This document shows, one piece after another, positions 5,877-39,613 of a stretch of DNA of 64,000 bases; the first letter of the stretch is position 1; the number at the start of each line of letters is the position of its first letter. The DNA is from Trichocoleus desertorum NBK24 (GTDB lineage Bacteria; Cyanobacteriota; Cyanobacteriia; FACHB-46). The notes beneath the pieces were generated by a model. It saw nothing but the letters and a program-made list of their open reading frames with translations, did not search any database and was not told where the DNA came from. The position numbers were made by a program, and so were the translations under genes. The stretch lies in assembly GCF_030409055.1 (NCBI RefSeq), contig NZ_CP116619.1:5386109-5450108 (forward strand). The letters are read 5' to 3'.

Positions 5877-7586
5877 CTAGTTAACTTTGCGTTGGAAGGT
5901 GAAGGTACCGCTGGTATTAGGTGCCACAGGAATGTTTACTGTGTCCACATACTTGGTTGCAGTCGCCTCATCAGGTGTGAAGATGATAGTGCCAGTAGCA
6001 TCAACCGAGGTGCCAGGCACAGAACTGGTATCTACAGTTCCGTTACCGTCATTGTCTTTAGCCCAGCTGTTGGTGCCCGCAGTGCCATCCTCAGTAATCA
6101 CTACCTTGTTGGCGCTTAAGGTGACGTTGCCTGTGCCCACCGGAGCTGAAGAAACGTTGGTGTAGGTAATCCGGTACTCAATAATGTTGCCTGCTCCAGC
6201 GTTCTTAACAGTAGTGCTGAAGGTACCATCAGCAGCAGGAACAGCAGATCCTGTGCCTTGAAGTACACGAGACTCTTTAACGAGCTTCAAGTAGCCAGTA
6301 TAAAGTTGGTCGATGGTGGTGTTTTGTAGCTCGCCTGTAGTGATGCTGCCGTCATTATTGGTATCGACGAAAGCTGTGATTGGCACTGGATAGCCTACCA
6401 ACTGAAGGCTACCTGTGGGTAGATCAACTGTTACTTGATAATTAGCAGTGATACCTGGCGCTAGATTAGCAATTTCTACTGGATTAGTTGCACTAATGGC
6501 CTGACCATCTGCGGTCGTACCAGAACCCGACGTAAATGTGAAGGTTGTGCCGTTGTAGGTGTAAGTTGCGGTCTGCGTACCGGAAGTAATAGTCACCAAA
6601 GTGCCAGCAGGTAAGGAAGCGGCTGTGGTCGGTGGCGTTGGTAGCAGGGACATGGTCAACGGATCAGTGGTTGAGCCGTTCTGAACGGTATTAGTAAAGG
6701 TAACTGCACCAGGATCAATCGCAGCCGCAGGATCAGTGCCAGGAGCAACAAAGGTGGTTTTGTTGGTAAAGTCATCGTTGTTGCTGCTAGGACCAACTGC
6801 ATCAGCAACCCCACTAGGACCGTTCACCATGACTGGTAATGCACCAATCAAGGTTTGTTGTGTTGCACTTGCTTCGCGCTCACCATTCGCCGGAGCACCT
6901 GCTACTTCATTGATTGTGCCATCTGGGTTATCTACAGTCCGCACTTCCTGAGCTAAGGCTGTATCAGTTATGTCTGCTTGGTTCTGCGTTAGAGGGGTAT
7001 TGTCATTGGGGCCAGTATCACCCAGAAGAACGGCAAGAGAAGAACCAGAGGTCGCTGTACCACTTACTGTAACTACAGCTCTCGCGAGTACCGTACCACC
7101 TACTGCAATGGAACCTGTGGTGACACCACCTGCGGGAACGTCAATATAGGTTGTACCGCCATCAACACTATATTGAACTTTGGAAACAGTGCCAGGGCCA
7201 GCCACTGTGGCGGTTGAAGGAATGAAGATTTTGGTGGTGTCGTTACCAACGTTAGTGATGGTGTAGTTGTAGTTGAGAATGTCACCCGGTTGAATAGTCC
7301 CACCATTTACGTCAATAATGCCGCTGGGGGTTGCAGTGATACCTGCAATTTCTGCTACTTTAATAACGACAGTGTTAGAAGTAGCGTTAATGGGAACTCC
7401 CGGAGCATTGGGGTCTTCGTAGGTTGCTGTTGCCGTGTTGCTGATGGTGGTTCCCGCAGCTGTTTGTGCCAAAGTTGGAAGTGCCAGTTGAAACACACCA
7501 CTTGCAATTAACAAACCTGCAACCAAAGAGCGGTAGCTGAACTTTGAACGGATGCTGGTTTTGTTGCTCGAAATCACTCTTTTCAC
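5877..7586 (-). CDS. Exported DUF11-repeat protein, first gene of the surface cluster
   Basis: A 569-residue protein starting at GTG 7586 (AGAGG lies about 10 nt upstream). Residues 1-42 form a signal peptide ending near LAQTAAG. The mature protein is Gly/Thr/Val/Asn-rich with few charges. It contains repeated conserved-repeat (DUF11) signatures: TISNTATATYEDPN, IQPGDILNYNYTITNVGND, and a C-terminal part with IIEYRITYTNVSS. The end (GTFTFQRKVN) lacks a sorting signal. It resembles the DUF11 proteins found on cyanobacterial and Deinococcus surfaces. As the first gene, it is followed by three further exported proteins. Its role as the main surface component is inference. Confidence 0.75.
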   Translation of the reverse strand: MKRVISSNKTSIRSKFSYRSLVAGLLIASGVFQLALPTLAQTAAGTTISNTATATYEDPNAPGVPINATSNTVVIKVAEIAGITATPSGIIDVNGGTIQPGDILNYNYTITNVGNDTTKIFIPSTATVAGPGTVSKVQYSVDGGTTYIDVPAGGVTTGSIAVGGTVLARAVVTVSGTATSGSSLAVLLGDTGPNDNTPLTQNQADITDTALAQEVRTVDNPDGTINEVAGAPANGEREASATQQTLIGALPVMVNGPSGVADAVGPSSNNDDFTNKTTFVAPGTDPAAAIDPGAVTFTNTVQNGSTTDPLTMSLLPTPPTTAASLPAGTLVTITSGTQTATYTYNGTTFTFTSGSGTTADGQAISATNPVEIANLAPGITANYQVTVDLPTGSLQLVGYPVPITAFVDTNNDGSITTGELQNTTIDQLYTGYLKLVKESRVLQGTGSAVPAADGTFSTTVKNAGAGNIIEYRITYTNVSSAPVGTGNVTLSANKVVITEDGTAGTNSWAKDNDGNGTVDTSSVPGTSVDATGTIIFTPDEATATKYVDTVNIPVAPNTSGTFTFQRKVN

Positions 7587-8239
7587 TGGATGATGCCTCT
7601 TGTATTGCTTTAACTAATCCTTTTGCCCAGGATTTGGAAGACTGCGGGAACCTTTGAAAGCTGGAATCCTGACTCTCTTAACTACAAGCTTTGAGTAGAG
7701 ATGTTATTAACAGTTAGCCAGAATACTGGGATTTAAATATCAGTAATTCGCACCAACTTTATCGAGATAGCCTGAGCTGTTAAGTAGAACCACCAACTCG
7801 AGTGCTTGGGTTCTAATAACCTTGAAAACTAGTATTCGCTGTAAATCAAAAAAACGATTCAGCACAATAGCGCATGTCTTGTCAGCACAACGCGCAAGAT
7901 CAAAAAACTCGCTTAAATCCTTGCTGTGCAGTAATTCTGTGAATTCAAATCAGTGTAAATAAGGATATTTTTTATTGGAAATTGAGCGTTCTAAAAATCA
8001 ATGACAAAATTACTATGACTGTTAATCTGATGTTAACTTCCAATCTCGTAGACAATCTTTTTAAGTGTTTTTATCCCTTTAAGGCTGTTAGACCTGTAAT
8101 AAGAAGCAAGAAGCTAGTAATTCTACTGTTTTGATTTCAGTTACTCTATTTTGAACTACCAGTTTTGGATACATAAATTCACATACTCTGATGGGGCGCA
8201 GTAGGATGCCTGTAGATGATTTGGAAAGGCAGCGTTCTT
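7587..8239. other. Divergent intergenic region (surface cluster / SDR gene)
   Basis: About 650 bp of A/T-rich sequence without a credible reading frame. It must hold the promoter of the minus-strand DUF11 cluster and that of the plus-strand SDR gene. I see no clear paired -35/-10 elements, long repeats or RNA structure. Confidence 0.5.
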
Positions 8240-24435: not shown

Positions 24436-27078
24436 ATGCCCCTAAAGCGTCCTCAAGTTCTGCAATATTTGCTCTCGGTTGGTCTGCTGGCGATCGCCTA
24501 TTTCGTCTCCGCTAAAATTTCGATTTCAGCCATTGGTCTAAATTCGGATGCTACGCCGCTTTGGCCCCCTGCCGGAATTGCTTTAGCCGCTTTTTTGTTG
24601 CGGGGATCATGGCTCTGGCCAGGGGTAATCTTAGGAGATTTCTTCCTCGTCCAGTCTCTAGGCGGCTCCCCGATTAATTCTGTGGTTTCTTCTTGGGGCA
24701 GTGTCACCGAGGCAGTAGTCGCCACGCTAGTATTGCGGCGCTTAGGATTTCAGCCCAATCTGGCTCGTTCGCAGGACGTTTGGGGTTTAATTGGAGCTGC
24801 CTTGTGCACTCCCCTCATCAATGCTACTTGGAGCGCGATCGTTGAAGGAGCGCTAGGTACGATTCCGTGGAGCCAAGCTTGGGAAAACGGGTGGACGCTT
24901 TGGCTGGGCGACTGCATGGGGATTCTAGTTGCGGCTCCCGTCCTGTTGACCTGCCGCCAGTGGCCTTATTTGTTTCAAACGTCGCGCCAGCGGATTGAGG
25001 GTGCTGTCTGGTTAACCCTATTGTGTGCGGTGAGTTGGGTGGTGTTTGGCTCCCAGTCTGGAGCGGCGATCGCTCAGTACCCGCTGGAGTATTTACCGTT
25101 TCCTTTTGTCGTGTGGGCAGCGCTGCGGTTTGGGCAATCGGGGGCTGTGCTAGCTAGCTTGCTTGTCTCCGGAATTGCAATTTTTGGCGCATTTCAAGGA
25201 CATGGACCCTTTGTGGCCAAGGCCGAAACCCTGCATCAAGCAGTGCTGTTTTTGCAAGCGTTTATGGGGGTAGTGATTACCACGGCTTTGGTTCTGGCGG
25301 CAGCTGTCAATGAACGCCAACGCACCGCTGAACTATTGCAGAAAAGTGAAGCTAGTTTAGCGAATGCTCAGAGAATTGCTCAGCTTGGTAACTGGGACTT
25401 AGATTGGCAGCAGCAGCAATTACGCTGGTCTGATGAGCTGTATCGCATCTTGGGTTTCCTGCCTAAAGTTTTTGCGCCAGACCGTGCAGTGGCTCTACAG
25501 TCCATTCACCCTGACGATCGCGATCGCGTTCAGCAAGCCCTAGAGCAGGCAATGGCCGAGCGCCAACCCTACCGAATTGACTACCGGATTCTGCACCCCG
25601 ATGGCACAGAGCGCTTGGTGTGTGAGCGACTCGCCTTTACGGCCCACGGTGTTACAGGAACAGTGCAAGACATTACAGAGCGCAAACAGGTAGAATTTCA
25701 GCTGCAAGAAGCTTCGGAGCGAGTGCATGAAGCCTTGCGTAGTAGCCATTTGCTGACAGAGATTGCGCTCAAAATCCGGCGATCGCTCGATCTCGATCAA
25801 GTTCTCAACACTACCGTCACGGAAGTACGCCAATTTCTCCAGGCAGATCGCGTGTATATTGGTCATCTCGACCAACAGGCCAACGGTTATGTTTTGGCAG
25901 AGTCGGTATTGGAGCCTTGGCCCTCGGTAATGTGTTTGGAATACGACGAGGAAGGGGTGCGAGAATTTCGGGCTTTGTTTGCCTCAGGCTGTAGCCGTGT
26001 GGTGCATGATGTGGCTCAGAGTCAGACAACACCCAAGATTGCTGCTTTCTATCAGCAATACCAAGTCAAGGCGAGCTTGGGAGTGCCGATTATTTTGGGC
26101 GATGAAGTTTGGGTGTTGGTGGCGAATCAGTGCGAGCATCCCCGCCAGTGGCAACCCTTTGAAGTCAATCTGCTAGAGCAATTGGCGACCCAGGTGGCGA
26201 TCGCGATTCAGCAAGGCCAGCTTTACCAACAGGTGCAGACGCTCAATACCAATTTGGAGTCGCAAGTCGAAGAACGCACTGCCCAACTGCAACAAAAAAT
26301 GCAGGAGTTACAAGACCTCAACCACTTCAAAGATATTTTCCTGCACGCCTTCTCTCACGATGTCCGAACCTCGATTATGGGCATGTCATTGATTCTGAAG
26401 AATTTGCAGAATAAGCCTGGTGACTCAGTTCCGGTAATGCGTTCAATGGTCGATCGCATGGTGCAAAGCAATGAACGTCAGTTGAACTTAATCAATTCCC
26501 TGCTAGAAGACCAATCGAGTGAAGGGCAACAAATCGTTTTAGCTTATGAAGCGGTACGTCTAGATGCCTTGGTCAACGACACTCTAGCCGACTTAGAACC
26601 GCAGTTGTCGCGCAACCAAGCCACGGTACAAAATCGATTGCCAGCTAATTTGCCGCCGTTGATTGCTGACCCATACCAATTGCAGCAAGTCTTCAAAAAC
26701 TTGATTACTAACGCCCTCAAGCACAATGCCCCCGGTGTAGAGCTAACCCTAAGCGCAACCTTAGAAGACAAGCAAATCCGCTGTACCGTTGAAGACAATG
26801 GTGTAGGCATGGGCCGAGAGGTTTGCGATCGCCTCTTTAAGCTTTATGTCCGAGGCTTAGACAATCCGCATTTAACCGGGATTGGCTTAGGGCTTTACCT
26901 CTGTCGGCAAATCATCACGGCTCATGGGGGGCAAGTCGGCGTAGAGAGCCAGCCCGGAGCAGGTGCAAAATTCTGGTTTGTTTTGCCACTAGCAAAGCCA
27001 TCTCTAGCAGGTCTGACGGCTGAGTCTGTTTACAACTCTCCTTCGTTACGGTCTTCCATTAGTAAAATCACTCCTTGA
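24436..27078 (+). CDS. MASE1-PAS-GAF membrane histidine kinase
   Basis: 880 residues from ATG 24436 (MPLKRPQ), preferred over an upstream in-frame ATG at 24331 because the MASE1 domain begins here. MASE1, about eight membrane helices, spans 10-290 (LWPPAGIALAAFLL, WPGVILGDF). A PAS is at about 305-425 and a GAF at 440-605, which lacks a cysteine at the bilin position. A dimerisation helix carries His641 in SHDVRTS, an atypical H-box with Asp-Val in place of Glu-Leu. HATPase is at about 730-860 (NGVGMG, GLGLYLC). Its last 49 bp overlap the convergent CheR-type gene. Probable partner: the divergent NarL-type regulator. Confidence 0.9.
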   Translation: MPLKRPQVLQYLLSVGLLAIAYFVSAKISISAIGLNSDATPLWPPAGIALAAFLLRGSWLWPGVILGDFFLVQSLGGSPINSVVSSWGSVTEAVVATLVLRRLGFQPNLARSQDVWGLIGAALCTPLINATWSAIVEGALGTIPWSQAWENGWTLWLGDCMGILVAAPVLLTCRQWPYLFQTSRQRIEGAVWLTLLCAVSWVVFGSQSGAAIAQYPLEYLPFPFVVWAALRFGQSGAVLASLLVSGIAIFGAFQGHGPFVAKAETLHQAVLFLQAFMGVVITTALVLAAAVNERQRTAELLQKSEASLANAQRIAQLGNWDLDWQQQQLRWSDELYRILGFLPKVFAPDRAVALQSIHPDDRDRVQQALEQAMAERQPYRIDYRILHPDGTERLVCERLAFTAHGVTGTVQDITERKQVEFQLQEASERVHEALRSSHLLTEIALKIRRSLDLDQVLNTTVTEVRQFLQADRVYIGHLDQQANGYVLAESVLEPWPSVMCLEYDEEGVREFRALFASGCSRVVHDVAQSQTTPKIAAFYQQYQVKASLGVPIILGDEVWVLVANQCEHPRQWQPFEVNLLEQLATQVAIAIQQGQLYQQVQTLNTNLESQVEERTAQLQQKMQELQDLNHFKDIFLHAFSHDVRTSIMGMSLILKNLQNKPGDSVPVMRSMVDRMVQSNERQLNLINSLLEDQSSEGQQIVLAYEAVRLDALVNDTLADLEPQLSRNQATVQNRLPANLPPLIADPYQLQQVFKNLITNALKHNAPGVELTLSATLEDKQIRCTVEDNGVGMGREVCDRLFKLYVRGLDNPHLTGIGLGLYLCRQIITAHGGQVGVESQPGAGAKFWFVLPLAKPSLAGLTAESVYNSPSLRSSISKITP

Positions 27079-28889
27079 ACTTGGCCCACTCCCCCCACCA
27101 AAGGCGTGCAGCTAACCCGACATTGAATCTGTCTACCGCGACGATTAATGGCATCTAGCAGGCTCTCTGAAGAACTATTAGCGCCACCTGTAAGACAAGT
27201 CCGGATGGGTTGTTTTAACTGTTCTACGGGTAAGCCAATGTCTATATTCAAGAAATTTTGACCAATGGCTTCCTCGGTACGTAAGCCCCACAAGTCCTCC
27301 GATTTGTGGTTCCAGGCTTGAATTTGCAAGTCCCGGTTTACAACTACTACGCCACCTTTCAAGCTACTCAGAATCGCGCCCAAAAAGGCATTGGCTTGAT
27401 TGAGCTCTTCGCTACTGCGTTGCAGTTCATCATTGACTGTATGGAGTTCTTCGTTAGTTGCCTGCAACTCCTCATTCATGGTTTCCAATTCTTCGTTGGT
27501 GGATTGCAGTTCCTCGTTGGTGGTTTCTAGTTCTTCGTTGCTAGATTGCAGTTCTTCGTTGGTGGTTTCTAGTTCTTCGTTGGTAGATTGCAGTTCCTCA
27601 TAAGCCGTCTCTAGCTCTTGGTTAGAGTGTTCAAGCTCTGCTTGCAAACGTTTGTAGCGGGTAACATCGGTGAAGGTAACGCTTGCCCCTAAGATGGTAT
27701 TTTCTGTATCCAGTAGCGGTTCTACCTGAATATCTAAAAAGACCCTTTCCGCCTGAGAAGCTAGCAGTTCTACATCTGTGAGGATCAGAGGGCGACGCTG
27801 ACTATAGGCTTGCTCAATACAAGAGCGCAACTCTACCGGACGATAGGAAATTTCTAAATCTTGTAAGGGACGACCGACATCGCGGTTGGTGATGTTAAAG
27901 AGCAGACGGGCGTACTCATTCACCAAGGTCAGGGCACCATTAGCATCAATGACAAAGCAGGCTAATGGGCTTTTGTCAAAGGCTGCTTCTCGTAACCGAC
28001 GGCTAATAGAGTTTTGGCTGCTGATGTCTTCATTTCCCATTTGCATGATCAAAAGCTGCTCGCGAGAATTCAGCCTGGGGACTTTGGTGAAGATTCGGCG
28101 TTTTAGCTCAACTGGCGTAAAGACGTTGGAATAGGTGAGCAGCATTTCTGCTTTACCTAAACATAGAAAGCCACCACCGCGCAAGGCAAAGTGAAAACGG
28201 GCAATAATGCGGGCCTGCGTATCCGCGTTGAAATACATCAAGGTATTGCGACAGATTAGCAGGTCAATCTTGGAAATGGGAGCATCTTGAATTAAATCGT
28301 GACGACCAAAAATAACCGATCGCCGCAATTCTTTTCGGAAAGAATAACTATTATTGAATTGCTCAAAAAATAGCTCGATTTCTTCGGGAGCCAAGCCTTC
28401 TAGTTCTCGTTCTAGATAGGTGGCTTGTCGGGCTTGATTCAGGGCTTCTTCATCTACATCGGTGGCATAAATCTTCACGCGCTCCCGAAACTGCTCCATG
28501 CCAATGACCTGAGCAATCACCATCGCGATCGTGTAGGCTTCTTGGCCCGAAGCACAACCTGCACTCCAAACCCGAATGGAGTCGCCAAATTTTTTGGAGG
28601 CCAGAATCTGGGGAATAATGTCGCTGGCAATATATTCCCAGGTAGGGCGATCGCGGAAAAATGAGGTCACATTGATCAAGAGAGTATTGAAGAGGTGATT
28701 GAACTCATCCGGATGCACCTCTAAGTAATCTAGATAGGTGCTATATCCCTCAATACCAACGGTTTGCATCCGCTTGTTGACTCGACGCATTAAGGTCGAA
28801 CGCTTATAGCCCGTAAAGTCAAATCCTCGGCTCCGCTTGATATAGTCTAATAATGCTTCAAACTCAGGGTTTTCACCAAAGTGGGTCAT
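27030..28889 (-). CDS. CheR-type methyltransferase with coiled coil and PAS domains
   Basis: 619 residues. CheR N and SAM-binding domains cover 10-270 (VWSAGCASGQEAYTIAM is the SAM loop; LLICRNTLMYF is the catalytic-domain signature). One PAS-like domain is at about 295-405. An extraordinary repeated coiled coil of alternating EELQSTN and EELETTN heptads follows at about 415-485. A second PAS with VVVNRDLQIQAWN sits at 500-615. This is the CheR-PAS half of the widespread CheB-CheR-PAS fusions; the CheB half is a separate gene at 29680-30786. Target glutamates of chemoreceptors are not evident in this window. Confidence 0.9.
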   Translation of the reverse strand: MTHFGENPEFEALLDYIKRSRGFDFTGYKRSTLMRRVNKRMQTVGIEGYSTYLDYLEVHPDEFNHLFNTLLINVTSFFRDRPTWEYIASDIIPQILASKKFGDSIRVWSAGCASGQEAYTIAMVIAQVIGMEQFRERVKIYATDVDEEALNQARQATYLERELEGLAPEEIELFFEQFNNSYSFRKELRRSVIFGRHDLIQDAPISKIDLLICRNTLMYFNADTQARIIARFHFALRGGGFLCLGKAEMLLTYSNVFTPVELKRRIFTKVPRLNSREQLLIMQMGNEDISSQNSISRRLREAAFDKSPLACFVIDANGALTLVNEYARLLFNITNRDVGRPLQDLEISYRPVELRSCIEQAYSQRRPLILTDVELLASQAERVFLDIQVEPLLDTENTILGASVTFTDVTRYKRLQAELEHSNQELETAYEELQSTNEELETTNEELQSSNEELETTNEELQSTNEELETMNEELQATNEELHTVNDELQRSSEELNQANAFLGAILSSLKGGVVVVNRDLQIQAWNHKSEDLWGLRTEEAIGQNFLNIDIGLPVEQLKQPIRTCLTGGANSSSESLLDAINRRGRQIQCRVSCTPLVGGVGQVQGVILLMEDRNEGEL

Positions 28890-29119
28890 GGCTTCAGATT
28901 CGAGGCAGTTGAATAAGGGCTATTGAGGGCAAATGGAAGTTTACAGATCTCACAGCATTAGGGAAGGATTCGGTGCTGACTATACAAGTTAGCATTACTA
29001 CATAGCCCACTGCCTTTAATCTGGTCAGTAGTAAAAGAGTATTATTCAGTGGTTCAATCAGTTGATATCTTAATAAAGTTATTAAATTAGTAATTACTCT
29101 TGGGCGTTTGGAGTAACCT

Positions 29120-29644
29120 GTGGCTATGAACCAAAAACCACCAAGCTCAAATCCCTGGCTAGACGCGCAATGGCGTGGTAGCGAGCAGAGACAATGGCAA
29201 TTGGAGGCTCAATCGCAATCTGATCAGGAGCAGTGGCACATTAATGAGGAACAGCGGCAGTCTAAAGAAGATCAGCGCGAAGTCAATGAGTCCAGCCGAT
29301 TAGATGCAGAGCGGTGGCGCGACCAAGCAGAAGTGATTAGGCAAGTACGGGAAACGGAACGGCAGGAGTCTGAGCGGGCTAGGCGAGTTCAGGAAGAACT
29401 GCGACAGGCTGCTGAAGAGTTTAGAAAAATGACAGAAGAGCTACGGCAAGCGACGGAAGTAGCCCGACAAGCTGCTGAAACAGCCCGACAAGCCGAGGAA
29501 AGTGCCCGACAGGCAACGGAAATGGCGCGACAAACCGAAGAAAGGTTGCGTCAGGCGATGCGAGAGCAGGAAAAGATTTTGGCAGAAATGCAGGAGACGA
29601 TAAAGGTGTATCGTCAGGTGAGGGGGGAAGGATGCGGGATGTAA
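29120..29644 (+). CDS. Charged coiled-coil protein of unknown function
   Basis: 174 residues, start GTG 29120 with GGAG 6 nt upstream (ATG 29126 is an alternative). Very rich in Gln, Glu and Arg. From about residue 75 it repeats a seven-residue pattern of the type RQAxExA (RQATEVARQAAETARQAEES), which is a long continuous coiled coil. No signal peptide or membrane segment. It lies alone on the plus strand between the split cheR and cheB genes. No family assigned; a scaffold for the neighbouring sensory proteins is conceivable but unproven. Confidence 0.65.
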   Translation: MAMNQKPPSSNPWLDAQWRGSEQRQWQLEAQSQSDQEQWHINEEQRQSKEDQREVNESSRLDAERWRDQAEVIRQVRETERQESERARRVQEELRQAAEEFRKMTEELRQATEVARQAAETARQAEESARQATEMARQTEERLRQAMREQEKILAEMQETIKVYRQVRGEGCGM

Positions 29645-29679
29645 GCTTTTAGCGATCGCTTAGGAATGAGATGCAGGGG

Positions 29680-30786
29680 TTAGCTAGCTTGCTCTGCGTT
29701 TATGTCCTCCATGTTTTTGGGGTTTTGTAATAAGAGTTGACGCAAGAGCGAGGCGTTGCGCTCGGCTTCATGGGCGCGCTCTTGAAACTGGTTTTCTGTG
29801 AGGCTATGACGTTGTTGGCGGGCATGACTGACCATGCGGCGTGCCAAAGCTGCTTTTTCTTCCAAGGCTCGGACTGCACACCACAGAGCCTGCTCTACCA
29901 TATCGGCTTGTTCCGAAACTAGGCTGTCGAGGGAGTAAGCATGACCCACATGGCAGCGGAAGCGGACTAAGTTATCATTCCGCAATTCCCAAAGCACACC
30001 GCCACATTCCGGGCAGGTGACGGCTGAAGATCTACCCGCATACTCACCCCGCTCTAAAGCGGCTTTATCTTCGGCTACGACCTCGGCTTCTTGTTCGATT
30101 TGAGTATTATCGTAAGGTGTCATGACTTTCTCTGGGATGGGGCTATTGACCAGTTTGCTTAAGGTAGGGGCAATATCAGCAATCCGTAGAACGTAGTCCA
30201 CCTCAACGTTGGCAATGGCGTTGCGGGGCATGCTATCGAAGAGCGCTTCATTTGGATCTTGGGCGATCGCAATTCCGCCTTGAGTTTTAATCAATTCTAG
30301 ACCAATCGTGCCATCGTCTAAGGCTCCGGAGAGCACTACGCCAATCGTTCGAGGGCCATAGGCTCTGGCGACTGAGCGAAACAACATATCAATTGCGGGT
30401 CGATGTCCATTTTCGCGGGGGCCATGACTCAAAGATAGAGAACCTGGCTTGACTATCAGGTGGTAATCGGGGGGAGCAATGTAAATGTGTCCTGGTAGAA
30501 TTGCCGCTCCATCTTCAGCGTGGCTGGCTGGTAATGGACCAAAACGGTTGAGGATTTTGGGCAAGACGCTTTTGCCGTGGGCGGGGAAGTGGACTACGAC
30601 TAAGACTGCGGCAGGTAAATCGGGAGGGAGAGTTTTAGCCACCTGTGCGATCGCTTCTACTCCACCCGCAGAAGCTCCGATCGCAATTACGAAAGGAATC
30701 TCCGAGAATATGTGTTTGCCAGCAGGCTGAGTCAAGGTAACGTAATAACTAGAGGAATGACCCGAGGATACCAAAATTGTCTGCAA
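29680..30786 (-). CDS. CheB-type methylesterase with C-terminal zinc-ribbon-like region
   Basis: 368 residues. A CheB catalytic domain at about 30-215 has Ser39 (GASAGG), His66 (VVVHFP) and Asp158 (SGALDDGT), the full triad. There is no N-terminal receiver, as in CheB domains of CheB-CheR fusions. The C-terminal part has CPECGG and RCHVGHAY, a Cys/His set likely to bind zinc, and then a helical tail. It starts 23 bp after the upstream kinase gene ends, so the two form an operon. The matching CheR is encoded 0.8 kb downstream across an inverted gene. Confidence 0.9.
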   Translation of the reverse strand: MQTILVSSGHSSSYYVTLTQPAGKHIFSEIPFVIAIGASAGGVEAIAQVAKTLPPDLPAAVLVVVHFPAHGKSVLPKILNRFGPLPASHAEDGAAILPGHIYIAPPDYHLIVKPGSLSLSHGPRENGHRPAIDMLFRSVARAYGPRTIGVVLSGALDDGTIGLELIKTQGGIAIAQDPNEALFDSMPRNAIANVEVDYVLRIADIAPTLSKLVNSPIPEKVMTPYDNTQIEQEAEVVAEDKAALERGEYAGRSSAVTCPECGGVLWELRNDNLVRFRCHVGHAYSLDSLVSEQADMVEQALWCAVRALEEKAALARRMVSHARQQRHSLTENQFQERAHEAERNASLLRQLLLQNPKNMEDINAEQAS

Positions 30787-30809
30787 AGCTTGTCTGTCTA
30801 GAGATAGCT

Positions 30810-32150
30810 CTATAGCAAGCTGACTCGACGCGGCAACTCGACCCGAAAGGTTGATCCTTCACCAATCTGGCTTTCTACTACAACTTTGCCTTGCATCAGC
30901 TTCACTAAAGAGTCTGTAATGGAGAGGCCTAAACCTGTCCCACTATGCCGTCGGATAATGGTTTGGTCGATTTGGCGGAAAGCCTGAAAAATATTAGCTT
31001 GCTCAATGGTATCAATACCAATACCCGTATCACTGACTGCGATCGCTACTCGCTCTTTCGACACCTCATAAGCTTCTATCCGAATGGTGCCAACATCCGT
31101 AAACTTGACCGCATTGGAAATTAAATTGATCAAGATCTGGCGCAAACGGCTTGAATCATTGATGATCGCGATGCTGGGCTGAGCAAGATGCACTTCCAAT
31201 TGCAAGTTTTTTTCCCTAGCCAGAGAGCGCATTTCTTCTGAGGTAGCCTGCACGAGTTGGGCTAAATCTAGTACTTCTAGCTTCAGTTCTAAATGATTTT
31301 CTTTAAGCTTGGAAAAATCTAAAATCTCTTCGATCAAAGTCAATAAATTTTTGCCATTCCTAAAAATGCACTCCAACATGGCTCGTTGCTGCCGCTGCTG
31401 CTCTGGATCACATTGCCGCAGCAGCAGATCAGAAAATCCCAGAATCGCATTCATCGGCGTGCGAAGCTCATGGGACATCGTTGCCATAAATTGAGTTTTG
31501 AGGCGATCGGCCTCGACTAAATGGAGATTTTGCAGTTGTAGTTGCTGAATGTGAGCTTCGGCTTGCTTACGAGCGGTAATGTCGCGCACTAGCCAACGTA
31601 AGGTGGTTGGTTGGTGCGTAGATTGACAGCGAGCCACCTCTACAGTTAAAGCCGCGTTAAATAACTTGTCCCCACGGCTCCGTAGTTGCACTTCCCACTC
31701 TTGTACCCGACTAATTTTGGGTAGCTGATTGACCACAGAACGAAATCCACGCCGATCTTCGTCTGGCACAAACGTGACAAACGGTTTGCCAATGAGATAG
31801 ACCCGCTCAATATTTAGCAATTGAGCTGCCGCTTGATTGGCTTCTTGGATTACGCCCTGAGAATCTGTTACTAGATAGCAGTCGGGGGCAGACTCAAACA
31901 GTTCTAGATAGCGCTGCCGTTCTATTTCTGCGGCTTCGCGAGCTTTAAACAGCTCCTCATTTTGCTGACGTAGTTCTTCTTCGGCAACGTAGAGTTCTTC
32001 TAAGGCAAGCCGTAGCTCTTCAAGGCATTCATTCAGAATTTCGGGGTGCTGTTCAGAAAGGATTTTGGCACTATCGAACAGCTTCTCGGTCTGCTGTTGT
32101 ACTAGTTCTAGCTGCCGAGTCAACATCCTCCCATCGCACTTAGCATTCAT
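30810..32150 (-). CDS. PAS histidine kinase, operon with cheB
   Basis: 446 residues. An N-terminal coiled coil (25-80, rich in EEL) is followed by PAS at about 82-195 (LFESAPDCYLVTDSQG). HisKA has His227 (SHELRTPMNAILGF), and HATPase at about 335-445 has DTGIGI and GTGLGLSI. No membrane segments and no receiver. The PAS region and its preceding coiled coil closely resemble those of the PAS-Crp protein at 35194-36414, suggesting recent domain sharing. Co-transcribed with the methylesterase gene 23 bp downstream. The response regulator is unknown. Confidence 0.92.
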   Translation of the reverse strand: MNAKCDGRMLTRQLELVQQQTEKLFDSAKILSEQHPEILNECLEELRLALEELYVAEEELRQQNEELFKAREAAEIERQRYLELFESAPDCYLVTDSQGVIQEANQAAAQLLNIERVYLIGKPFVTFVPDEDRRGFRSVVNQLPKISRVQEWEVQLRSRGDKLFNAALTVEVARCQSTHQPTTLRWLVRDITARKQAEAHIQQLQLQNLHLVEADRLKTQFMATMSHELRTPMNAILGFSDLLLRQCDPEQQRQQRAMLECIFRNGKNLLTLIEEILDFSKLKENHLELKLEVLDLAQLVQATSEEMRSLAREKNLQLEVHLAQPSIAIINDSSRLRQILINLISNAVKFTDVGTIRIEAYEVSKERVAIAVSDTGIGIDTIEQANIFQAFRQIDQTIIRRHSGTGLGLSITDSLVKLMQGKVVVESQIGEGSTFRVELPRRVSLL

Positions 32151-35193: not shown

Positions 35194-36414
35194 TTAAAAC
35201 TGATCGTCGTGCAGAATGATGTAGTGCTTTGGATCTAGGGTGATTTTGCCCTGCTGCTGTAGTTTGCCTAGCATGCGGGTGACAGTGACTCGCGTAGTGC
35301 AGCAAGCGTTGGCTAGGTCTTCGTGAGTCAGACGGACTTGAATCCGAGTCCCATTGCTGACAGGCTGACCGACTTCTTGTTTCAGTAACTGCAAGAAATG
35401 ATGCAAGCGGTCTTGCACTCGCCGTTGCCCACACACTGCCAGAAATCGTTCTGCCTGCTGGAGACGCTGGCCGACTTGTGAAAGTAAAGATTGAGCGAGT
35501 TCGGGGATTGCTGCAATGTCTTGCCAAGCAATAGAAACCAACTCGACTTCATCGGTAAGTGCTGTTGCCTGGTAAGTCTGGAGCGAGGTTAAGCCAGGGC
35601 CAAAGGGTAAGGATGGGCCTGCGATGCCAATGAACACTTCTTCTCCATTTTCCGAGAAAGTATTTAACTTCACCAAGCCTTGTTGTACTTGCCAGATAGC
35701 CTCTAACTTGCAGGGAATGAGTTCTCCTTTTACGTACTTGTGAATGGGCAGATCGGACGAACTACTGCCGTGCGTTGGTAGATAGGTCTGAGGTGCCATG
35801 CCATCTGGTAGCCGACGGATGAGCCACTGAAGACAGCAGAGTTCATCTCTAGGGCTGGTCACAATAGAGACGGTGGCTGTGACTGTGAAACCATCAGCTT
35901 CGCGAGGCTGAATGGTCAGCTTGCACTCTTGCGATCGCTCTATTTGTTGAATTTGTTGGAGTTTTTGCCGAAACGCGAGTCGGTGCTCTGACGGAATAAA
36001 GCTAAAAAGAGGTTTACTTACCAAAAACCGTTGGGCCACATTGAGGAAGGAAGCGGCTGCTCGGTTGGCTTCTTGAATGATGCCATCAAAACTGGTGATC
36101 AGGTAGATGTCAGGGGCTGAGTCGAAAACTTCTCGGTAGCGATCGCGCTCTGCGGAGAGTTGGCTTTGGAGGCGCAATAACTCTTGATTCTGCTGCTGTA
36201 ACTCTTCAATTGCAACTTGCAATTCTTCTGACGCAACGCCTAACTCTTTGAATGCTGTAGGTAAAAGCTCTATAGGATCAGGAGCTGGCACATTGGCCGC
36301 TTCATACAGAAGATTGATCCGCCCATTCATTTTGCTCATCTGGTGCAATAGGCTTTCTAGCTTCTCGCCGTGGAGAGGAAGTCTGGTAGTGAGAGAAGGC
36401 TGCTGAGCTGTCAT
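35194..36414 (-). CDS. PAS-containing Crp/Fnr-family transcription regulator
   Basis: 406 residues. A coiled coil (about 55-90, EELQVAIEELQQQNQEL) leads into PAS at 92-200 (VFDSAPDIYLITSFDG). Then comes a cyclic-nucleotide-binding-like beta roll at about 225-315 (VKGELIPCKLEAIWQVQQG) and an HTH_Crp at about 345-395 (LTHEDLANACCTTRVTVTRML). The roll lacks the canonical Arg-Ser phosphate-binding cassette, so it probably does not bind cAMP. The PAS-Crp order is unusual; the PAS part resembles that of the kinase at 30810-32150. Likely a one-component regulator sensing through PAS. Confidence 0.85.
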   Translation of the reverse strand: MTAQQPSLTTRLPLHGEKLESLLHQMSKMNGRINLLYEAANVPAPDPIELLPTAFKELGVASEELQVAIEELQQQNQELLRLQSQLSAERDRYREVFDSAPDIYLITSFDGIIQEANRAAASFLNVAQRFLVSKPLFSFIPSEHRLAFRQKLQQIQQIERSQECKLTIQPREADGFTVTATVSIVTSPRDELCCLQWLIRRLPDGMAPQTYLPTHGSSSSDLPIHKYVKGELIPCKLEAIWQVQQGLVKLNTFSENGEEVFIGIAGPSLPFGPGLTSLQTYQATALTDEVELVSIAWQDIAAIPELAQSLLSQVGQRLQQAERFLAVCGQRRVQDRLHHFLQLLKQEVGQPVSNGTRIQVRLTHEDLANACCTTRVTVTRMLGKLQQQGKITLDPKHYIILHDDQF

Positions 36415-37273
36415 GGAAACCAGTCGAATGAAGGACAGTTGAAGAGAAAATTAGCGAAATTGACCACAAAACTACTTTGGCAACCCTGGATGAAAGTGGG
36501 TTATCTTCAGCATAGAAGCTAGATTATTAAAAAGTTTGAGCTATTTCAATAAGTTGCTTTACGAAATCTTTAAATGTCTTACTCTTACCGTACCCTGGAG
36601 GACATTTAGTGTTATTTAAGCTACAAATTCCGTTATTAACTAGCGATCGCGGAACTGCAAAAAAGAAGTCAAGCTCTTGCGCACGTAGGTTTTTGGATTG
36701 CAAAGTATAGGCGATTACATAGTGTCTTTATGGAGGGGTATACCTAAAGGCAGAAGTACGTCTAAAAATAGGGTAGTTACTTTATCATTAGCCCAATTTA
36801 TCCAAAAAGCGAAACACAATTTTTGTGAAATTGAGCTTGACAACTGATATATTAGGTTAGGTTTTAATCTGTACGAAGACCCACGTTGGGGTCAAAATGT
36901 TGATGGCAAGTAGCCATGCAATACTCATTAATAAATCTGCTAGCCGCCGCTAAATTTTTGGCTAGCACTCTATTTCACTAACAATCACTTCATTACTAAG
37001 ATTCACCTCATCTGCAAAGTCAAAGCTCAGCCCTGGTTTAGGGCAACAACAGCAAACCCAAGCAGCACTAATTGCTTTTTGCTAATTTTCAACTTGCTGG
37101 TTCAGACAGTTTTTCTATACCTTCTGAATCGCTAAATCTGCTCTCTGGCAGAGTACTTTTCCTGTATAGCTTGGTATCCCTTTGGAGAAGGTTGGCACAC
37201 CCTAGTTATTTTTGATGATTGGGTGCCACCGCCTTATGAGTTCCTGAAACCACCCTCACGCTTGCTTGTACCC
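36415..37273. other. Long intergenic region with several small hairpins
   Basis: 859 bp between the divergent PAS-Crp gene and a small plus-strand gene. No credible coding frame. It holds a HIP1 site and hairpins at about 36887-36902 (GACCC/GGGTC) and 36939-36966 (GCTAGCC/GGCTAGC, 14-nt loop). A TTGACA at about 36837 could be a -35 element, but its -10 is unclear. It may encode a leader or small RNA. Confidence 0.35.
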
Positions 37274-37645
37274 ATGACTCAGCCTGGTCAGACCATCCAA
37301 GTATCACCGCAATTTTCTGACGATCAACTACTGGCCATCTGTGAAGCCGCCGATGTCATTGCTTGCCAGTGCCCTAGCTACTTAGTTCACTTACTGAAAG
37401 AAGTTAAAGAATTTCATCGCTATACCAATGACTGCATCCAAACTTCTCCACAAGATGCCTCAGTCCATGACTGGCTCAGTAGTCGAGCTGCTCAGATGGA
37501 ATTCATGCTCTCGCAGACCATTTTTGAACTATTGCAGCGCGAAAATCTGATTGATGACCAAAACAATCTAGATCTCTCTAAGATGGCAGAACGCTCCAGA
37601 GCGATCGCTCTACGCCAAACCGTAGCTCGCAACTCTTGTGCCTAA
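37274..37645 (+). CDS. Hypothetical protein, 123 residues, probably helical
   Basis: Start placed at ATG 37274 (MTQPGQTIQVSP); an upstream GTG at 37223 adds 17 atypical residues. The protein is soluble and mainly helical (DDQLLAICEAADVIACQCPS, then LKEVKEFHRYTNDC), with three cysteines in the first half. It resembles small conserved cyanobacterial proteins of unknown function. The family could not be named with certainty. It stands alone after a long non-coding region. Confidence 0.7.
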   Translation: MTQPGQTIQVSPQFSDDQLLAICEAADVIACQCPSYLVHLLKEVKEFHRYTNDCIQTSPQDASVHDWLSSRAAQMEFMLSQTIFELLQRENLIDDQNNLDLSKMAERSRAIALRQTVARNSCA

Positions 37646-38269: not shown

Positions 38270-39613
38270 TTAGAGGGTGAGAAATTCTTCGGCGCTAGAA
38301 GGATGAATCCCGATCGCCTGGTCAAAATCTTGTTTGGTCGCTCCCATTCTGATCGCGATCGCCAAAGTTTGAATGATTTCGGCAGCAGCCTCACCCACCA
38401 TATGCGCCCCTAAGACGCGATCGGAGCGGCTATCTAAGACTAATTTCACTAAGCTTTTTTCCGATCGCCCCGTCAAGCTGACATATAAGGGTGAAAATTG
38501 GCTGGACTCACAGCGCACCGCATCCCCAAACTGCTCACGGGCTTTCGTTTCACTTAGGCCCACAGATGCCGCTTCTGGACGAGCAAATACGGCTGTCGGC
38601 ACACAATCATAGTTGACTGGCTGGGGTTGTTCCCCAAATTCAGTTTCTACAAAGGCGATCGCTTCCATCTTGGCAACAGGCGTGAGGGCTAAACGATTGG
38701 TACAATCTCCCACTGCAAAGATATGAGGTTGCTGAGTGCGGCTGTATTCATCTACCGCGATCGCGCCTTTCGGGTCAGTGGCAATGTCTACTTGCTCTAA
38801 GCCCAAGTCTTTTGTATTTGGGGTGCGTCCCACGGCACACAGCACCGTATCTACGGTTAGCGCTTCTGCGCAGTCGCCTGCCAGTTGTAGGCATAGTCCT
38901 GTGGCTTCCGGCGTGATTTCCTTAGCTGTGGTATTCCCGCAAAACCTGATGCCGCGCTGAATCAACCCTGCTTGTACTTCGTGGCCCAGGTCTGAGTCGA
39001 AGCCAGATAAGATTTGCTCGGCTGTATCCACTAGGGTGACTTCTGAACCTAAGTTTCGCAGCAGGCTGGCGAACTCTACCCCAATGTATCCGCCCCCGAT
39101 AATGGCGATCCGCTGCGGCAATTGGGGCAGCTGAAACATCTCGCGTGAAGTGATGGCATGCTCCGCTCCCGGAAAGTCGGGCTTAGCGGGTCTACCTCCT
39201 ACCGCGATCAGAATTTTGTCTGCTGTGACTCGGCGATCGCCTACTTCCAAGGTGTGAGGATCTACAAAAGTGGCACGCCCTGAAAGTATCTCTACTCCTG
39301 CCTTAGATAGCGCTTGCTGGTGCGACTGCTGGGTGTGTTGTAGTTGTTGGTGAATCGCTTGCATCAGCTTCGACCAATCGAACTGGGGCTGGACTTCTTG
39401 CCAGCCGTACCCCACTGCATCTTGGAACAACTGCGGAAAATCAGCCGCATAGACCATCAGCTTTTTGGGCACGCAACCGCGATTGACACAGGTGCCGCCA
39501 ATGGCATTTTGCTCCGCGATCGCCACCCGCGGGCCATAAGCCGCCGCTCGTTTTGAGGCCGCAAGTCCAGCTGGCCCACCTCCCATGATCAACAGGTCAT
39601 AGTCAAAGCTCAT
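38270..39613 (-). CDS. Glutathione-reductase-like pyridine nucleotide disulfide oxidoreductase
   Basis: 447 residues. FAD-binding GGGPAG at 11-16, redox-active Cys42 and Cys47 in CVNRGC as in glutathione reductases, second dinucleotide fold with GGGYIG at 173-178, and His437 with Glu442 near the C-terminus (HPSSAEE). Overall it matches cyanobacterial gor genes. One feature departs from type: the loop after the second fold reads VDTAEQ (195-200), where NADPH-dependent enzymes carry arginines, and an acidic Asp196 sits at the position of the Glu of NAD-dependent lipoamide dehydrogenases. NADH preference is therefore possible. Confidence 0.88.
   Translation of the reverse strand: MSFDYDLLIMGGGPAGLAASKRAAAYGPRVAIAEQNAIGGTCVNRGCVPKKLMVYAADFPQLFQDAVGYGWQEVQPQFDWSKLMQAIHQQLQHTQQSHQQALSKAGVEILSGRATFVDPHTLEVGDRRVTADKILIAVGGRPAKPDFPGAEHAITSREMFQLPQLPQRIAIIGGGYIGVEFASLLRNLGSEVTLVDTAEQILSGFDSDLGHEVQAGLIQRGIRFCGNTTAKEITPEATGLCLQLAGDCAEALTVDTVLCAVGRTPNTKDLGLEQVDIATDPKGAIAVDEYSRTQQPHIFAVGDCTNRLALTPVAKMEAIAFVETEFGEQPQPVNYDCVPTAVFARPEAASVGLSETKAREQFGDAVRCESSQFSPLYVSLTGRSEKSLVKLVLDSRSDRVLGAHMVGEAAAEIIQTLAIAIRMGATKQDFDQAIGIHPSSAEEFLTL

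Follow-up and report, generated by a model that had tools for sequence, protein, structure and literature searches.

A PAS-Crp fusion family in cyanobacteria with a shortened ligand cassette, a family-specific cysteine and recurrent linkage to signalling genes

The locus and the domain order of the PAS-Crp protein

The window (the whole 64,000-nucleotide stretch of Trichocoleus desertorum NBK24 that was analysed) contains an intact ORF on the minus strand, with an ATG start, encoding a 406-aa protein hereafter referred to as the PAS-Crp regulator. The features of the locus are listed below, with the basis of each assignment in brackets.

27030..28889, minus strand, CheR methyltransferase with coil and PAS domains (Pfam, clustering)
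29680..30786, minus strand, CheB methylesterase without a receiver, gene partner of the kinase (Pfam, linkage counts)
30810..32150, minus strand, PAS histidine kinase with a coil-PAS module of the same kind, in other genera also linked to PAS-Crp (Pfam, alignment)
35194..36414, minus strand, PAS-Crp regulator gene, 406 aa (ORF, Pfam, genome search)
35206..35409, minus strand, HTH_Crp DNA-binding domain (residues 336-403) with an NtcA-like recognition helix, RVTxTR (Pfam, alignment)
35302..35304, minus strand, codon of Cys371, a residue invariant in the fused family only (alignment)
35509..35703, minus strand, degenerate cNMP roll with a shortened ligand cassette (residues 238-302) (Pfam, NtcA alignment)
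35824..36141, minus strand, PAS domain (residues 92-197) (Pfam)
36136..36243, minus strand, coiled coil with a conserved leucine heptad (residues 58-93) (alignment; helix 50-99 in the model)
36705..36719, minus strand, candidate operator TGTA-N8-TAC upstream of the PAS-Crp gene (conserved across the genus, three genomes)

The order coil, PAS, roll and HTH_Crp proposed in the first-pass annotation was confirmed by the Pfam domains and the leucine-heptad coil. The PAS domain was recognised with confidence (E 2.8e-10; 40.6 bits for a cut-off of 22.6), as was the DNA-binding domain (HTH_Crp_2, residues 336-403, E 1.8e-13; Crp, residues 361-389, E 7.1e-11). The roll alone was weak, with the cNMP_binding match (residues 238-302; 20.3 bits) falling under the cut-off of 27.5, but a profile spanning roll and HTH aligned with NtcA, the closest solved relatives (E 7e-33), which places the protein in the Crp/Fnr superfamily. 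No PDB chain spanning both the PAS and Crp halves was found among the matches listed. The genus is represented by two further genomes, each with an orthologue of the same architecture (93% and 69% identity), so the fusion is not a chance join.

At least 97% of the 65 fused homologues have hydrophobic residues at the heptad positions of the coil (L58, L65, L72, L79, 86 and 93). The AlphaFold models of the full-length protein (mean pLDDT 49.9; partial alignment rows probably badly placed) and of the Crp half (mean pLDDT 52.9; near-identical alignment rows) were too poor for use, the helix spanning residues 50-99 being the most confident stretch of the former.

The roll lacks the ligand cassette

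The cassette of the roll is five residues shorter than that of the NtcA from the same genome in all 65 fused proteins aligned, and the deletion falls where NtcA has its effector loop, the Arg of which, according to the part of the source consulted, holds the acid group of the effector in NtcA and CRP (PMC12937710). Neither an R-S nor an R-T pair was present in the cassette of any of the 65 sequences. The PAS-Crp regulator thus lacks the phosphate-binding cassette and conserved Arg of a cAMP-dependent Crp, and the earlier claim that it has no recognisable cyclic nucleotide site is supported. The same short cassette was found in 29 of the 30 standalone relatives aligned to the same NtcA (46 rows minus 17 loci named as near copies, plus the PtrA-like gene of the same genome; this set was also used for the Cys371 and conservation counts). 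The loss is therefore not tied to the fusion, and the shortening would have preceded the fusion event or arisen independently of it. Given this short cassette in the standalone proteins, the PAS domain need not have taken over a ligand function that had been lost.

The DNA-binding half and Cys371

The residues of the recognition helix match NtcA: R375 and R380 are present in all 65 fused and all 30 standalone proteins, and V376, T377 and T379 in 62, 64 and 63 of the 65 fused sequences, respectively. NtcA itself differs from the PAS-Crp regulator in keeping its effector loop with the Arg and in having no PAS domain; the NtcA model (TIGR03697), for which the cut-off is 245, gave 71.8 bits, with the loop shortened.

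PtrA-like standalone relatives (NCBIfam NF053664) share both the shortened cassette and the RVTxTR helix. PtrA has been described, in the parts of the reports consulted, as a cyanobacterial Crp-family regulator of phosphate stress (PMC12260270, PMC11098088), and it was the best NCBIfam model for our protein (182.2 bits), so it might be asked whether the PAS-Crp regulator is simply PtrA with an extra domain and the same role. We consider this very improbable. The score is well under the curated cut-off of 300, a nearer PtrA-like gene lies elsewhere in the genome (219.7 bits, also under the cut-off), and the standalone group holding that gene forms its own clade (SH-aLRT 99). PtrA has neither PAS nor coil, and Ile, Val or Thr at the position of Cys371.

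Cys371, within the HTH, was found in all 65 fused proteins and in none of the 30 standalone relatives (28 Ile, 1 Val, 1 Thr). A motif count over all 46 standalone rows, one of which was unreadable, likewise revealed no Cys at this position. Seventeen columns are identical in at least 64 of the 65 fused sequences, only one of them in the PAS domain; 15 share the majority residue of the standalone proteins, and Cys371 is the exception. By this alignment, Cys371 is a diagnostic residue of the fused family, the only such column, and it has been kept since that family arose. To our reading this is a new feature.

The coil-PAS module and its relationship to the neighbouring kinase

The likeness between the coil and PAS of the regulator and those of the histidine kinase at 30810-32150, from which the first-pass annotation deduced domain shuffling within 5 kb, is real (40% identity over 166 aa, E 6e-31). 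The module is a common one, however: the kinase coil-PAS was matched at E <= 1e-32 in 99 of the 388 genomes, PAS-Crp proteins being among the matches. Such cyanobacterial coil-PAS kinases resemble the regulator in this module and differ from it in their kinase output and in their PAS domains, which fall on a separate branch of the tree. In the PAS tree, one branch (SH-aLRT 95) separated 12 kinase PAS domains from 65 fused ones; the window kinase grouped with kinases of other genera, and the PAS of the regulator with those of other PAS-Crp proteins. A tree constrained to keep the PAS domains of kinase and PAS-Crp from this genus together was rejected (AU p = 0.006). Recent local shuffling between the two genes was thus rejected, and the shared module is older than these genera.

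Conserved Cys or His residues that could act as haem or flavin ligands in the PAS were not found: over residues 85-221 of the 65 fused sequences, no column had 30% or more His or Cys, which argues against a haem PAS of the FixL type and a cysteinyl-flavin PAS of the LOV type. FixL PAS chains are among the matches of the family profile (E 2e-6). The PAS core is conserved, with N117 in 64 and W197 in 62 of the 65 proteins, and the linker between PAS and roll is variable. Receptor-like methylation of the Glu-rich coil by CheR/CheB was discarded as a candidate, since only 32 of the 65 sequences have the second residue of the Glu pair (residue 64).

The lack of a cofactor signature would fit a protein that binds DNA constitutively and is controlled chiefly through its own expression level, as with SdrP, HB099 and DdrI, the PAS being a dimerisation module only, and ligand-free Crp proteins have been described (PMC12937710, as far as the part consulted goes). 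Nevertheless, the PAS has been retained in 65 fused proteins with its N117 and W197 core, which seems more than a spacer needs, and we regard this explanation as improbable.

Distribution and origin of the fusion

The search covered 388 genomes of the cyanobacterial class, and plasmids. Matches at E <= 1e-30 were obtained in 325 of the 388 genomes, mostly to standalone Crp proteins of ~200-250 aa. The fused architecture was found in at least 65 copies from at least 56 genomes, corresponding to 12 family codes by our tally; these counts are lower bounds, with at most four candidates scored per genome, and include one genome (G262) in which the match covers residues 191-404 only and the ORF is full length. 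The single plasmid record covering at least 80% of the query, from Kovacikia minuta, is a copy already counted (G303). The genome of T. desertorum NBK24 contains a second full-length PAS-Crp copy, 46% identical to the window protein, as well as the standalone PtrA-like gene, NtcA and other Crp genes. In Microcoleus-type genomes (L012-L037), a standalone Crp protein is 52-59% identical to the Crp half of the regulator.

In the Crp-domain tree, the standalone proteins formed one clade (SH-aLRT 99), with an unsure root because the outgroups are long. A single fused clade was not rejected (AU p 0.874), the tree held to it having the higher likelihood. Both this and the PAS tree are quick ones with many unresolved forks. 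The phylogenies are compatible with one origin of the fusion, an old architecture that is fairly widespread among cyanobacteria.

The 2007 paper on cTFbase states that in cyanobacteria from fresh water and soil, signalling domains, PAS among them, are joined to some transcription factors of several families, Crp included (PMC1858693). This class is generic; in the part consulted, neither an individual protein nor a tree, a signature or a gene context is given. The literature, in which subscription journals were thinly covered, yielded no study of a PAS-Crp regulator, and the word PAS is absent from a study published in 2025 on the DNA-binding domain of CRP/FNR. The architecture is fairly widespread and has been described only in that generic mention, so the counter-case named in the first-pass annotation, a common and described architecture, applies by half; we consider it real, conserved, fairly common and apparently unstudied.

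Genomic neighbourhood and linkage to signalling genes

The kinase, the receiver-less CheB and the CheR with its long Glu-rich coil and PAS domains adjoin one another at 27030-32150. Within ~6 kb of the PAS-Crp gene, CheB was present at 8 of 65 loci and a CheR-like gene at 7 of 65 (window included; CheR outside the window was assigned by clustering only). Among the best 14 kinase matches, all of which were taken for this figure, seven have a PAS-Crp gene no more than 12 kb away and 13 come from genomes with PAS-Crp; for one more, from the same genus, the PAS-Crp gene is on a different contig, near a contig end. By our estimate, the chance expectation is well under one (~24 kb of 6 Mb per copy). 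Kinases were judged by frame length and clustering, with Pfam run on the window kinase and three others, and the longer kinase list is without the rows that are PAS-Crp genes and without many weaker rows. For CheB orthologues (E <= 1e-100), PAS-Crp was within 12 kb in 8 of 31 genomes, that is, in 8 of the 22 having both. CheB and kinase are paired in 26 of the 31, with or without PAS-Crp. In another clade, the start of the PAS-Crp gene and a CheY-like receiver gene share 4 nt at 5 of the 64 loci (three belong to this genus), which suggests translational coupling. Most PAS-Crp loci have neither the kinase-CheB cluster nor a receiver neighbour. The recurrent linkage to a PAS kinase-CheB cluster or a receiver gene is new in this work, as are Cys371 and the enrichment of GTA-N8-TAC sites in the upstream regions. 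It also qualifies the earlier description as a one-component regulator, which fits less well for the copies linked to kinase and CheB genes or overlapping a receiver gene.

This linkage raises the possibility that the PAS-Crp regulator is the output arm of the kinase-CheB-CheR cluster, its coil-PAS pairing with or being acted on by the kinase (or by the receiver protein in the other clade), and thus a response partner rather than a stand-alone sensor. The proximity of half of the best kinases, the CheB counts and the receiver overlap speak in its favour. However, the kinase-CheB pair occurs in 9 of the 31 genomes where no PAS-Crp was found, most PAS-Crp genes have no such pair nearby, the two PAS domains are not each other's closest kin, and Pfam revealed no receiver or other known phosphoacceptor domain in the regulator. 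We therefore consider it unlikely.

Overlapping pairs were observed in the same genome at ~2.40 Mb (receiver at 7137-7643 and PAS-Crp at 5911-7140 of locus L106) and at L102, L103, L111 and L122. A conserved operon downstream of this paralogue was discarded: the first gene had no Pfam match and the next two gave matches to transposase pieces (HTH_32, DDE_3). In the window, a divergent gene encoding 140 aa (37223-37645) had no confident Pfam match, and its relatives adjoin PAS-Crp in L076, L077 and L116. The gene at 38270-39613 presumably encodes a glutathione reductase, from its sequence motif, and a 447-aa ORF occupies a similar position in L076 and L077.

A candidate operator

The NtcA consensus site is given as GTA-N8-TAC in the part of the source consulted (PMC3898017), and the same site is predicted for the PAS-Crp regulator because its recognition residues are those of NtcA. 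Upstream of the gene, TGTAATCGCCTATAC (36705-36719, minus strand) retains the form TGTA-N8-TAC across the three genomes of this genus, in a region where other stretches are as conserved. In the regions upstream of 64 PAS-Crp genes, TGTA-N8-TACA occurred 7 times in 20.5 kb; the corresponding regions of 556 neighbour genes (119.7 kb) contained 9 such sites (Poisson 0.0011). For GTA-N8-TAC, the counts were 18 and 42, respectively (Poisson 0.0005). With spacings of 6 and 10, the TGTA sites were too few for any excess to show. The sites are present in a minority of PAS-Crp upstream regions, and an unbiased scan of spaced palindromes gave several other words with equal or higher values, many of simple composition. 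The enrichment is modest and suggestive of GTA-N8-TAC being read by the PAS-Crp regulator; NtcA itself could be the reader of these candidate sites. No suitable -10 box was seen by eye in the alignment for an NtcA class II type promoter adjacent to the site at 36705-36719.

Proposed mode of action

We propose, with a probability of roughly 0.6, that the PAS-Crp protein is a pocket-less member of the PtrA/NtcA branch within the Crp/Fnr superfamily and works as a dimeric DNA-binding regulator gated by its PAS. The leucine-heptad coil and the PAS would form the dimerising input; the roll would serve as a structural and dimerisation body without a small-molecule pocket; and the HTH would read an NtcA-type GTA-N8-TAC operator, possibly including that of its own promoter. 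A change in the state of the PAS (ligand, partner or redox state) would be passed to the DNA-binding half. We infer dimerisation, gating, operator identity and autoregulation from the features described above; the missing PAS cofactor signature and the variable PAS-roll linker would count against gating.

The main interest of the family is its invariant cysteine and recurrent signalling linkage, not its similarity to the local kinase. An apparently unnamed regulator subfamily is thereby defined in at least 56 of the 388 cyanobacterial genomes by one diagnostic residue and a predicted operator, and its signal and regulon can therefore be tested in a laboratory strain. Such work would show how a Crp scaffold without a ligand pocket comes under PAS control.

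More speculatively, the fusion would have created a two-input regulator, in which the PAS signal is combined with a thiol switch of Cys371 at the HTH turn that makes DNA binding respond to cellular redox state; we hold this to be a tentative idea with the odds against it. Alternatively, the cysteine may have no special function and have become fixed a single time in the shared ancestor. Residue 371 lies directly after the first HTH helix in both low-confidence models. The adjacent Cys372 is found in 47 of the 65 fused proteins and also in 13 of the 30 standalone ones, and the total number of cysteines per protein varies from 2 to 12.
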